Below are positions 5,205-64,000 of a stretch of DNA of 64,000 bases, piece after piece. The notes beneath the pieces were generated by a model that made no database searches, was not told the origin of the DNA, and was given only the letters and a program-made list of their open reading frames with translations. Location: the NCBI GenBank assembly GCA_005518205.2, contig RFFC02000005.1, positions 1 through 64,000 on the forward strand, read 5' to 3'. Both the position numbers and the translations under genes were made by a program. Positions within the stretch are counted from its first letter, which is position 1. Each line of letters starts with the position of its first letter. The DNA comes from Hormoscilla sp. GUM202 (lineage in GTDB: Bacteria > Cyanobacteriota > Cyanobacteriia > Cyanobacteriales > Desertifilaceae).

Positions 5205-5597
5205 TTAACTACTTTGAGCACCACTCTGTTTTTTGGCTTTGCTAGGCATTTTATCGTTGATGTAGTTATATACTTCTCGAAACTTGGGGATAGCTCTGAG
5301 TTCTATCTTGCTACCATCTTTGAGGGTGATGACCATATCTCCCCATAAGCCTAGTCCGCGAGACACCTTTACTATGTTAGTGATTTCCGAATAGATCAGA
5401 TCGGCCCGATCGCGTCCCATCCAGCCACCTGTAACAGAGATGCGGCGACTGGTTATCCGGAAGCGCAGCCACAGGGCCCTGACTATGGCCCCCACTGTCA
5501 GGGGCAAAAAAATCAGGGTCAAACCCAGTAACAGATTAAAGATCAAATCACCGATATGGGGTCCTCCCTCATAATACACGTCCTCTCGAATCCCCAT
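5205..5597 (-). CDS. PH-like domain membrane protein
   Basis: A 130-residue protein with one long hydrophobic hairpin (about residues 16-45) and a bacterial PH (DUF304-type) domain: FRITSRRISVTGGWMGR followed by SEITNIVKVSRGLGLWGDM. In cyanobacteria this gene is regularly found between rnpA and yidC, as here. Its start overlaps the end of rnpA by 29 bases, which suggests translational coupling. Molecular role unknown. Confidence 0.85.
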   Translation of the reverse strand: MGIREDVYYEGGPHIGDLIFNLLLGLTLIFLPLTVGAIVRALWLRFRITSRRISVTGGWMGRDRADLIYSEITNIVKVSRGLGLWGDMVITLKDGSKIELRAIPKFREVYNYINDKMPSKAKKQSGAQSS

Positions 5598-6174
5598 TGA
5601 GTACCTCCGCTTCTGCCAACATCTGCTCTAATTCTCGCAGAAATTGAGCAGAATCGCACTCCCCTGCTGCTAGTCGGGCCATTACTACCAACTGCCAACC
5701 AGGTGATAAACTCGGCAACAACTGGCGCATACAGGCCCGCAGTCGCCGCTTGATCCGATTGCGGATCGTAGCTTTTTTACTGACTTTCCTGCCCACAACA
5801 ATACCAACCCGGGTTGGCTGCGACCCAGCTGCAACCGGCGCATCGACCTGCGACTGGTGCTGAGGTTGGGGCGGTGTCCCCGGGGTAGTGCGACGTATCG
5901 CTGTGGTCTCCTCCCTCGTTCCCATGGCTCTGCCTGGGAACGTGCGACTAGCGCGAGGTTTCTCCCCCCTCGTTCCCATGGCTCTGCCTGGGAACGTGCG
6001 ACTAGCGCTCCCAGGAGAAACCTCACCAGGAGATGCAGCACCAGGAGACACCTCACCCGGGGACACTGGAGGCAAAGCTCTTAAAGTCAGATGAGGGGTG
6101 CGACGGGTTCTTCGACTCTGATAAACTGCTTCAAAGTCTCGCCAATGTCTGAGTCTATGGGCTTTCGGTAACAC
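5569..6174 (-). CDS. rnpA: Ribonuclease P protein component with in-frame repeat insert
   Basis: About 201 residues from a GTG start at 6174 (V/M-LPKAHRLRHWRDF), where the family normally begins; the usual family length is 115-130. RnpA assists the RNase P RNA in 5' processing of tRNA precursors. The RNR motif is intact (RNRIKRRLRACMRQL). Between the first beta strand (TPHLTLRAL) and VGIVVGRKVSKKATI lies an extra stretch of about 85 residues. It consists of SPGxxSPG repeats and two copies of SRTFPGRAMGTR encoded by identical 40-base repeat copies at 5915-5954 and 5969-6008. The gene starts 16 bases after rpmH. It is probably functional because the insert falls in a loop, but this is inferred. 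Confidence 0.93.
   Translation of the reverse strand: MLPKAHRLRHWRDFEAVYQSRRTRRTPHLTLRALPPVSPGEVSPGAASPGEVSPGSASRTFPGRAMGTRGEKPRASRTFPGRAMGTREETTAIRRTTPGTPPQPQHQSQVDAPVAAGSQPTRVGIVVGRKVSKKATIRNRIKRRLRACMRQLLPSLSPGWQLVVMARLAAGECDSAQFLRELEQMLAEAEVLNGDSRGRVL
5915..6008. repeat. Two copies of a dispersed palindromic repeat inside rnpA
   Basis: Identical 40-base copies at 5915-5954 and 5969-6008, spaced exactly 54 bases apart (18 codons). The core is a palindrome CGTTCCCA-loop-TGGGAACG followed by TGCGACTAGCGC. Both read in frame within rnpA. Related cores lie at 6993-7020, 35119-35148, 43324-43362 and 63762-63790. Confidence 0.9.
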
Positions 6175-6190: not shown

Positions 6191-6328
6191 TTAGACGCTG
6201 AGGCGATGACGCCCCTTTCTTCTGCGAGCATTGATCGTTCGGCGGCCACTTTTGATCCGCATGCGAGCGCGAAAACCCGAGGTTCGCTTGCGTTTGCGTG
6301 TCGTCCCACCCAAGGTGCGTTTAGTCAT
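6191..6328 (-). CDS. rpmH: 50S ribosomal protein L34
   Basis: A 45-residue protein beginning [19 protein letters not shown] and ending GRHRLSV, the typical L34 sequence: very basic, with the RTSGFRARM core. L34 is part of the large ribosomal subunit. It heads the minus-strand block rpmH-rnpA-PH-yidC-jag, the order conserved in most bacteria. The ATG is at 6328 and the TAA ends 16 bases before the rnpA start. Confidence 0.97.
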
Positions 6329-21192: not shown

Positions 21193-21252
21193 AAGCAATT
21201 CAAAATTCAAAGTTCAAAATTTGGACAGTCTTTGGGCGCAAGGATCTGCTTC

Positions 21253-21309
21253 TTGAGAATTGAGAATTGAGAATTGAGAATTGAGAATTGAGAATTGAGA
21301 ATTGAGAAT
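21253..21309. repeat. Heptamer array TTGAGAA
   Basis: About eight copies of the 7-mer TTGAGAA/GAGAATT. With the following 88 bases (21313-21400, ending TGAGATGCTCC) it is repeated at 21798-21925, so the toxin-antitoxin remnant between them sits in a direct-repeat frame. Confidence 0.9.
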
Positions 21310-21429
21310 CGAGATCTGGGCTATTTTCCATTCTCCATTCGCAATTCTCCATTCGCAATTAGCATAATTTAATGCCAAAATGCAAAAGTGAGATGCTCCC
21401 AAACTGTAGAAGCCCGATCGCAGGAGAAT

Positions 21430-21667: not shown

Positions 21668-21797
21668 ATCTACATGATAGAATAATAGCAGAAACCCGGT
21701 TTATGGCCACAAACAGGCGATCTCCCGGTGGAACCAGGGCCATCTGCACAAACTAGAGCAAAATTGTTAGCATATTTGGTGCATCCCAGTTTTGCTT

Positions 21798-21925
21798 CTT
21801 GAGAATTGAGAATTGAGAATTGAGAATTGAGAATTGAGAATTGAGATCTGGGCTATTTCTCCATTCGCAATTTTCCATTCGCAATTAGCATAATTTAATG
21901 CCAAAATGCAAAAGTGAGATGCTCC
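21798..21925. repeat. Second copy of heptamer array plus flank
   Basis: TTGAGAA units followed by a nearly identical copy of the 21313-21400 flank (ATCTGGGCTATTTCTCCATTCGCAA ... AAGTGAGATGCTCC, with a short deletion). The pair forms direct repeats of about 130 bases, 0.5 kb apart, and recombination between them could delete or duplicate the intervening segment. Confidence 0.85.
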
Positions 21926-30619: not shown

Positions 30620-32485
30620 GTGAAATTCCATTGGCTATTATCTGGTGCTCTAGGTGTTTGGCTGCTATCGAGTCCCGTACAAGCGGCTAACTTACAGTTT
30701 TGGCGCTTTGATGCTAACCGCAACCGCTTAGAGTTTACGACATCCAGCCGCGTTCAGCCCAGAGCGCAACTGCTCTTCAACCCCACTCGTCTGGTGATTG
30801 ATTTACCCGGAGTTAGGTTAGGGAGAAGCATGCAAGAGCAGCCGGTGAAAACACCGGGGATTCGATCGGTCCGGGTGGGGCAGTTTACCCCTGGAACTAC
30901 TAGGATTGTGATTGAATTGATTCGGGGTTATACCCTCGACCCACAACAAGTCAGATTTCAAGGAGCTACTCCGAGCCAGTGGCTAGTTCAATTACCGACT
31001 CCCCAACCCTTAAATCTATCTCCCCCCGCCCCACAGGCTCCACCTGTATATCCTCCGCTAGAGGTGGAGCCTTTCGATCCACCGTTAAATCCTGGTACTC
31101 GACCAGCCCCTACGATGTCCGCCGGGAGCGCTACTCGCACTACCCAGCGGACATCGGAGAGTGATATACCTAGATCGAGAATTCAAGTGGAAAATCTGCG
31201 GGTGACGAACGGTGGGTTTTTCATTAGCACCCGGGGGGAAACTCCAGAAATTAAAAAGGTAGAGCGCAGTAAAAATGGCACGGAAATTAATATTGACCTA
31301 CCGGGAGCAAGCATCGATCCTAATCTGAGGCAGCGAGAATTATCGATCGACAGCAAAGGTGTTAAAAAGGTCAGACTCTCTCAAGTTGAAACCTCACCTC
31401 CCGTTACTCGTATTACTCTTTCTGTCACAGAAGATAGCCCCAATTGGCGGGCCCAGATGATCGGGAACGCGATTATACTCTTACCCAAAGGTGGCAGTCC
31501 TGCTTTGCCCTCTTCTGGTCAGCCTTGGCCAGTTGGAGAACAGTTAGCTAGCGCCGATCCTGGGTCTGACCAAACTGCCACCATACAGTCGGTTCAACTG
31601 TTTGGATCTCGACTGATAATCAGGACCGAGCGCCCGGTGAATGCTATGGGTAGATGGGAAACACCCGCAGTCTACAAGCTGACAATCTCTCGGGCACGAC
31701 TGAGTAGCCAAACTAGAACACCCCAGTTAAATTCAACTGGTCCCTTGTCAGACCTGAGTATAGAGCAGTCAGATATTAACAGAGTAGTGATTTCCTTGCG
31801 CCCAGTTTATGGTGTGACAATTGCAAATTTCAGTCAGTCTGGTCAATATCTGTCTCTACCACTGTCACCCATTGCCACCAGAAATCCTCCCGTCCCGCCG
31901 GTGACTACTCCCAGGGGTCCGATCGTGATTGATGTGCCACCTAATGAGCGCCTTGTCGTGGTGGTCGATCCCGGTCATGGTGGAGGCGATCCCGGTGCTA
32001 TTGGCATTGACGGCTTGCAAGAAAAACAGGTAGTTTTGGATATCTCTCTACAAGTGGCAACAATCTTGCAGCAAAAAGGCATCCTTGCACTGCTGACTCG
32101 CGATGATGACCGGGAAATTGACTTGCAACTTCGGGTGGATTTTGCCGAACGGGTCAATGCTAGTTTATTTGTGAGCATCCACGCTAACGCGATTAGTCTC
32201 AGTCGTCCCGATGTGAATGGGCTAGAGACCTATTACTATGATACTGGCGTCCGCCTGGCCAGGACTATCCACGACAGCATTCTGCAACGCACTGGCATTT
32301 CAGACCGGAGAGTGCGGCGAGCCAGATTTTACGTTCTCAGGAAAACTTCTATGCCCGCCGTCTTAGTGGAAACTGGGTTTGTAACTGGTGCTGATGATGC
32401 GCCTAGATTAAGGAATCCAGCTTGCCGCCGCCGCATGGCTGAGGCGATCGCGGAGGGGATTGTTCGGTATCTGCGGCAAAATTAG
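30620..32485 (+). CDS. amiC: N-acetylmuramoyl-L-alanine amidase with AMIN domains
   Basis: A 621-residue exported amidase that cleaves the bond between muramic acid and the stem peptide, acting in daughter-cell or septal wall processing; in filamentous cyanobacteria such AmiC proteins drill septal nanopores. The signal peptide ends at VQAANL. Up to three AMIN-like beta domains follow (about 25-125, 190-295, 315-420). The amidase_3 domain has zinc ligands His453 (VDPGHGG), the Glu of LQEKQ and the His of SIHANA, and the catalytic Glu of VETGF. A Pro-rich linker lies between. murI follows at once, giving a small wall-related pair. Confidence 0.94.
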   Translation: MKFHWLLSGALGVWLLSSPVQAANLQFWRFDANRNRLEFTTSSRVQPRAQLLFNPTRLVIDLPGVRLGRSMQEQPVKTPGIRSVRVGQFTPGTTRIVIELIRGYTLDPQQVRFQGATPSQWLVQLPTPQPLNLSPPAPQAPPVYPPLEVEPFDPPLNPGTRPAPTMSAGSATRTTQRTSESDIPRSRIQVENLRVTNGGFFISTRGETPEIKKVERSKNGTEINIDLPGASIDPNLRQRELSIDSKGVKKVRLSQVETSPPVTRITLSVTEDSPNWRAQMIGNAIILLPKGGSPALPSSGQPWPVGEQLASADPGSDQTATIQSVQLFGSRLIIRTERPVNAMGRWETPAVYKLTISRARLSSQTRTPQLNSTGPLSDLSIEQSDINRVVISLRPVYGVTIANFSQSGQYLSLPLSPIATRNPPVPPVTTPRGPIVIDVPPNERLVVVVDPGHGGGDPGAIGIDGLQEKQVVLDISLQVATILQQKGILALLTRDDDREIDLQLRVDFAERVNASLFVSIHANAISLSRPDVNGLETYYYDTGVRLARTIHDSILQRTGISDRRVRRARFYVLRKTSMPAVLVETGFVTGADDAPRLRNPACRRRMAEAIAEGIVRYLRQN

Positions 32486-43072: not shown

Positions 43073-43508
43073 TTACCAGCTATTGGGCAACTTCAGGATC
43101 TGTTGATTTCGCAGGAGGAGTAGGTTCTGGGTTTGAGGGCCCGCCACTCCATCAGGACGTAACTGATTATCGCGTTGGAACTTGATGACAGCGAGTTCTG
43201 TGACTGGACCAAAGTAGCTATCAAGCCAACCTGCCTTTTCTGGACTATTTCCCGCTGATTGCAACGGCGTCAAAGTTGCTGTTACAATCGCTTCATCTTC
43301 CCTATCTTCTATCTGTGCCCCCCCTCGTTCCCAGGCAGAGCCCTGGGAACGTGCGAGTAGCTCGCTGCGTCTCCTGGGTAGCGCGAATACGATGTCTCCC
43401 GGGTAGTGCGATGGGAGACATCGAGCGACCAGGAGACGCCCCTTTCCTTTGACCCTGAGCATCAATTACAAACTGAACAGATTTCAATGCTGCTCTTAAA
43501 TCTGTCAT
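43073..43508 (-). pseudogene. Chimera of an antitoxin-like gene, repeat insert and peptidoglycan-binding domain
   Basis: From ATG 43508 the frame MTDLRAALKSVQFVIDAQGQR is the start of an antitoxin-like protein. It then enters repeat sequence (SPGRSMSPIALPGR, RTFPGLCLGTRGG, the same motif as in RnpA) and stops at 43302. In another frame the antitoxin-like C-terminus continues (EDREDEAIVTATLTPLQSAGNSPEKAGWLD). At GWLD it passes straight into SYFGPVTELAVIKFQRDNQLRPDGVAGPQT, a PG_binding_1 module that normally belongs to wall enzymes. The product is thus a patchwork. The C-terminal frame of 130 residues may still be expressed, but no function is likely. Confidence 0.7.
43324..43362. repeat. Palindromic repeat inside the antitoxin-like gene
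   Basis: CTCGTTCCCAGGCAGAGCCCTGGGAACGTGCGAGTAG is a member of the family described in rnpA, with the inner loop inverted (CAGAGCCC instead of GCTCTGCC). It is read as RTFPGLCLGTRG on the minus strand. Confidence 0.85.
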
Positions 43509-63592: not shown

Positions 63593-64000
63593 TTATTCAC
63601 CTTTTTCACTCATCAACTATTAGTATAGCGAGCCCTTATGAGTTGAGCAATAGGAGTTTGCTCAACTCCTTACTATGCCAGGGAGCATCTCAGTTTTGTA
63701 ATTTAGCCCCTGCGCAGCGGAGGGGGCCCGGAGCGTGGGCTTTGTGAGTGTAGCCGGACCCCTCGTTCCCACGGCTCTGCCTGGGAACGGGTTCGGACGG
63801 CGACGGCAAATATGAGATGCACCTCTGGTTCAAACCAGAGGCTAATAGCTAAAGTCGGTTAAAACCGACTAATAGAATGATGCTTGAAATAATTGTAGCA
63901 TTTTTTTTTAAGTTAAATCATGGCGATGAAGGTTGGGACTGGTATAGTTGATTGTAGTTCCGATCTACTATAATCTAGCAATTATATTTTATTTGTGAAC
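63593..64000. repeat. Repeat-rich stretch at the window end
   Basis: No supported gene. It contains a palindromic repeat of the rnpA type (63762-63790, CCTCGTTCCCACGGCTCTGCC..GGGAACGG), the inverted copy of the GTCGGTTTTAACCGAC repeat (63839-63878) preceded by CTCTGGTTCAAACCAGAG, and two short stretches ending GAGATGCACC. The last 100 bases are AT-rich. Confidence 0.65.

Follow-up and report, generated by a model that had tools for sequence, protein, structure and literature searches.

Small palindromic repeats nested in frame in rnpA and dispersed through Hormoscilla genomes

The rnpA locus

The window, a 64,000-nucleotide stretch of DNA from Hormoscilla sp. GUM202, carries rnpA on its minus strand (6174..5569, GTG start, 201 aa) with rpmH directly upstream at 6328..6191. 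The product was identified as RnpA by its match to Pfam PF00825 (5.1e-25), the single such match across the genome, a repeat-rich metagenome assembly drafted at 6.87 Mb in 70 contigs and published as 70 scaffolds with a mean of 98 kb (PMC6520454). All conserved RnpA positions are kept and the RNR motif is intact, as an earlier note made from sequence alone had stated.

The same note claimed two identical copies of a palindrome, 54 bases apart and in the rnpA frame, and this held. A 48-nt match between 5907-5954 and 5961-6008 is 98% identical, with a start-to-start distance of 54 nt. The fully identical stretch measures 41 nt and consists of GCGCTAGTCGCAC, the palindrome P (GTTCCCATGGCTCTGCCTGGGAACG) and GAGG (5914-5954 vs 5968-6008). 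The P cores at 5918-5942 and 5972-5996 are both in frame, and both units are read as RTFPGRAMGTR. The further claim of an insert of ~85 residues held relative to family outgroups, with P making up only part of it; H, another repeat, and an array of 15-nt units account for the rest (Table 1).

The insert lies between predicted core strands at residues 29-34 and 122-126. In an AlphaFold2 model of RnpA, scores are 78-92 in the blocks of the core and 46-60 in those of the insert, and the insert is likely to be disordered, as far as a low-confidence prediction can indicate. Tryptic peptides predicted from the insert sequence include ALPPVSPGEVSPGAASPGEVSPGSASR and EETTAIR; its translation has not been shown. 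A known structured RNA at this position was rejected, as an Rfam search of the insert region returned no match. Elsewhere in the window, TTGAGAA 7-nt tandem repeats form two blocks ~500 nt apart (21239-21340 and 21785-21872) and resemble heptamers common in cyanobacteria.

Table 1. Coordinates of rnpA, its insert and the repeat copies of the window
Feature	Position	Strand	Remarks
rnpA, RNase P protein	5569..6174	-	PF00825, conserved residues
In-frame RnpA insert (~residues 35-119)	5818..6072	-	3' part overlaps naturally variable linker
First unit (5' in gene): H half-loop GCGCTAGTCGCAC + P	5968..6008	-	P core 5972-5996
Second identical unit, 54 nt on: H half-loop + P	5914..5954	-	P core 5918-5942; missing in G002
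Four 15-nt units in rnpA	6007..6066	-	VSPGE VSPGA ASPGE VSPGS
Inner H stem, 5' arm GAGGTTTCTCC	6014..6024	-	Pairs with 5955-5965
Inner H stem, 3' arm GGAGAAACCTC	5955..5965	-	
Outer H-like stem, 5' arm GTGTCCCCGGG	6056..6066	-	Perfect complement of 5874-5884
Outer H-like stem, 3' arm CCCGGGGACAC	5874..5884	-	Homologous arm in G002 model match
Complete 48-nt H hairpin in AMIN/amidase_3 gene (30620-32485)	31111..31158	+	64.6 bits, E 9.4e-17
P copy beside degenerate H (43388-43425), close to 5' end of PG_binding_1 ORF	43326..43350	-	
Non-genic P copy	63765..63789	+	GTAG motif upstream (GTAGCCGGACCCCTC)

Distribution of palindrome P

P is 25-30 nt long and matches the window genome 119 times at ≤3 mismatches, while a reversed-pattern control gave 0 matches; its abundance is far beyond chance. 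Restriction of the repeat to rnpA, which would have refuted the earlier note, is therefore excluded, and its claim of further copies in the window held, with one in or near the PG_binding_1 ORF and one that is non-genic. The three Hormoscilla genomes contain 107, 124 and 92 copies. No copy was found in the 7 same-family genomes searched, and diverged P is present in one of 49 order relatives. This distant relative, G011, has nine diverged copies (GTTCCGGTGGCTCTGCCTGGGAACG) and the other order relatives none, which could hint at transfer or a wider ancestry.

It had also been suggested that the repeat tolerates translation in some frames. P is indeed open in all six, with no stop in any frame in 108/112 copies, but six open frames are also found in 33% of 25-mers shuffled by base and in 53% of those with shuffled palindrome arms. 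As shuffled 25-mers are so often open, the openness of P needs no special coding design, and this reading was rejected.

An upstream GTAG motif accompanies 30 of 99 type-A P copies and is missing from both rnpA copies. The window genome contains four Y1_Tnp matches. In G002, a RAYT-type Y1 transposase gene (L166:1160-2229) has a GTAG-tagged P ~250 nt upstream and is a possible mobiliser of P. At the remaining Y1/RAYT genes the nearby palindromes are diverged or absent. A RAYT as the proven mover was rejected, its support being one neighbourhood only; GTAG-tagged P together with Y1/RAYT-type genes is no more than suggestive of possible mobilisation in trans.

Repeat H, a hairpin with a covarying stem

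The flanks of several P copies are mutually complementary yet differ from locus to locus, and a P-free form was therefore sought and found as H. H is ~48 nt long and, in aligned copies, has a conserved 16-nt loop and a variable stem with covariation. Counts of the P-free form GCGCTANTCGCACTACCC are 142, 98 and 95 for the three Hormoscilla genomes, and three other genera searched yielded none. A covariance model recovered at least 143, 127 and 133 copies, these being minimum counts because scoring covered no more than 150 candidates in each genome; in 11 genomes from outside the genus it recovered none. H-in-H nesting was also found at L099 and L174.

Changes on both sides are seen in 12 of the 14 stem pairs. 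The covariation score is 0.498 vs 0.186 in shuffles (0/500 as high), and the signal is lost when the partner is slid. Because the copies share descent and form subfamilies, the covariation counts do not represent independent events and partly carry subfamily signal. Covariation of the stem may reflect selection on the hairpin or the copying of one arm from the other, which the data do not separate.

Nesting and allelic states in Hormoscilla rnpA

RnpA of the same family outside the genus is 125-133 aa long and lacks the insert. Within Hormoscilla the length is graded: 150 aa without P in G001, 181 aa with one P in G002, and 201 aa with two P in the window. An insert common to all relatives, the other result that would have spoken against the earlier note, is thus ruled out. 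In G002 rnpA the H model matches with a 50-nt insertion placed exactly in the loop, and P lies inside it (E 2.3e-9). At the corresponding position in G001 rnpA the model picks up a weak hairpin of exactly 48 nt, with 11.5 bits on one strand and 10 bits on the other (E 0.003 and 0.008, respectively, for a 200-nt segment); it is read as a degenerate H, although the match is weak. In the window the outer arms span the whole structure and the inner stem surrounds the first P.

The RnpA insert is therefore compound, with P nested in the loop of the genus-specific H, which corrects the earlier view of a single repeat. A plain 54-bp tandem duplication was considered as the whole story and replaced by nesting, because the outer and inner stems pair. 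The order of events, H followed by P and then by a second P segment, is inferred from the three allelic states.

In-frame copies in other genes

The earlier note had proposed listing the copies inside open frames with their phase, and such copies of P were found in several genes and in different frames. Only a sample of the P and H copies was examined in context, and genes are cited here only where Pfam or orthologs back them. That every long P-containing ORF is a gene was rejected, as many such ORFs are spurious or probably start only downstream of P. LysC (aspartate kinase) has two in-frame P copies between its ACT domains; P is present in LysC of all three Hormoscilla genomes and absent from that of the family outgroups. 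An Sfp-type transferase has P at two sites in two frames, and further in-frame copies lie in a BioD/DRTGG protein, a SpoU methylase and a Rad50-like ATPase. As the frames differ among genes, no single encoded peptide is favoured.

H is likewise found in frame. An HI0933 flavoprotein has an H of 45 nt net in G001 only, while a phosphoglycerate-mutase-like gene carries 51 nt in G000 (the window genome) and G002, with empty sites in G001 and G003. ComF-like and phosphomannomutase-like ORFs also hold in-frame H. The hairpin at 31111..31158 of the window is in frame and encodes about TMSAGSATRTTQRTSE; it sits between the domains of the AMIN/N-acetylmuramoyl-L-alanine amidase. In G001 (L210, L211) the phosphoglycerate-mutase-like gene is apparently broken at the very place that H occupies in the orthologs of G000 and G002. 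Besides P and H, a third palindrome, GGTCCGCGGACGGCCCGAAAAATCG, lies in frame in L015:60-2117 (lysC) and L073:2080-3387 (BioD-like). Its peptides are VRGRPEKS, duplicated in LysC of the window genome, and RSADGPKNR in BioD, and congeners vary.

Comparison among congeners gave filled and empty sites at both Sfp sites and in BioD, with G003 left out for BioD since the frame taken there was not homologous. The phosphoglycerate-mutase-like site is a clean 51-nt insertion, and at the filled Sfp, BioD and flavoprotein sites a few target bases are lost or changed. No clear case of target-site duplication was found among the filled and empty sites compared.

Interpretation and alternatives

The sequences, the allelic series, the empty sites and the frames are shown directly. 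The reading that best accounts for them is that small palindromes keep inserting into Hormoscilla genes and are filtered for frame. This is very likely (~0.85), with translation, neutrality and the order of events remaining inferences. H and P would be genus-specific, apparently non-autonomous hairpins that insert across Hormoscilla genomes and also into each other. The mobile-repeat reading is favoured because of the allelic series, the genus-restricted and dispersed P, the dispersed H with covariation, and the empty sites in congeners. The model of RnpA, confident for the core and not for the insert, is counted as further support.

In rnpA, an H-type hairpin would first have entered the variable-loop codons between two core strands, and the loop of an H copy would then have taken up P. 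Growth by multiples of 3 nt, nested or tandem (15-nt units, and a 60-nt segment with the second P), would have brought the protein from ~130 to 201 residues. Survivors in essential genes would be the frame-keeping insertions in tolerant surface loops. The RnpA insert is probably translated, on this inference, as a disordered and roughly neutral loop.

A domesticated insert is an unlikely alternative. The Arg/Pro-rich segment with its two RTFPGRAMGTR blocks could add a function such as RNA contact, or an mRNA hairpin could regulate expression. The insert is basic, it has stayed in frame in all three allelic states, and its RNA folding exceeds that of shuffled sequences (z -2.9). However, its length and content vary among close congeners, unrelated proteins contain the same peptides, which are read in several frames, the insert is predicted to be disordered, and folding is inherent to palindromes.

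That misassembly of this repeat-rich draft metagenome produced the second P copy in rnpA is very unlikely. The near-identical tandem units in a draft genome and the single copy in G002 would fit an artefact, but the sequences flanking the two copies are not quite the same (TCTCCTCCC vs TCTCCCCCC) and the 60-nt difference preserves the frame. The one-P state and the other genes are independent of this second copy.

Slippage of low-complexity coding sequence without mobility is all but excluded, and for P and H as a whole already refuted, since each occurs ~100-140 times at unrelated sites and congeners have clean empty sites. It is still a possibility for the SPGEV units, a true 15-nt array able to grow in this way.

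Beyond the preferred reading of frame-filtered insertion, a bolder version can be entertained as an unlikely possibility. Two independent mini-hairpin families would be a standing source of in-frame protein insertions genome-wide, and the stem complementarity of H would arise from arm-to-arm copying during movement or replication, making H a new mechanistic type of hairpin.

Comparison with known palindromic elements

Rickettsia palindromic elements (RPEs) and their Wolbachia counterparts are genus-specific palindromes whose in-frame copies occupy solvent-exposed parts of conserved and essential gene products (PMC3767692, PMC2229807). The parallel with Rickettsia drawn in the earlier note held as a resemblance and not as membership. 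In-frame insertion in conserved genes is common to both, in Hormoscilla in RnpA, LysC, Sfp, BioD, HI0933 and the phosphoglycerate-mutase-like gene. RPEs are 100-150 bp long, whereas P is 25-30 nt and H ~48 nt, and only the rnpA compound of H and P nears RPE size. The Hormoscilla repeats also differ in using several frames and in the nesting of two families. In-frame fusions of MITEs have been reviewed (PMC2229807).

REPs that are in frame in genes have been described from many bacteria and, for Anabaena variabilis, REPs that sit within larger palindromes (PMC3733652). Like P, the GTAG- and CGTC-tagged REP elements are palindromes of 20-40 nt, some of them in frame in genes. Unlike GTAG-REPs, the majority of P copies are untagged, H bears no tag at its ends, and the RAYT link is weak. 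The sections of PMC3733652 that were consulted name no intragenic REPs from cyanobacteria.

That paper cites the SDR work of Elhai et al. 2008. SDRs are reportedly very small mobile hairpins of Nostoc relatives among the cyanobacteria, with compensatory changes, nested mutually and in tandem repeats. Their very small size and compensatory changes are matched by P, at 25-30 nt, and by the stem covariation of H; their nesting is matched by P in the H loop and H in H. SDRs are not known to insert into essential coding genes. By analogy, the mode resembles that of RPEs, intragenic REPs and SDRs; membership in any of these is not shown.

Hormoscilla is regarded as an obligate symbiont of sponges (PMC6520454). 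No report of these repeats in Hormoscilla, or of such an RnpA insert, was found in the open-access literature searched, and the main text of the genome paper (PMC6520454) does not mention palindromes. In-frame palindromes outside Rickettsia are not new in kind. What is new are the hosts, the sequences, the nesting of two families in an essential gene, and the living intermediates.

Implications

Hormoscilla, a photosynthetic symbiont of sponges, offers an independent example of selfish palindromes turned into coding sequence, which is known mainly from Rickettsia. H, with its fixed loop and covarying stem, bears on the movement of very small elements. As living relatives carry this essential gene with the hairpin alone, with one P and with two P, the question of whether such insertions are neutral or useful is directly testable in RnpA.
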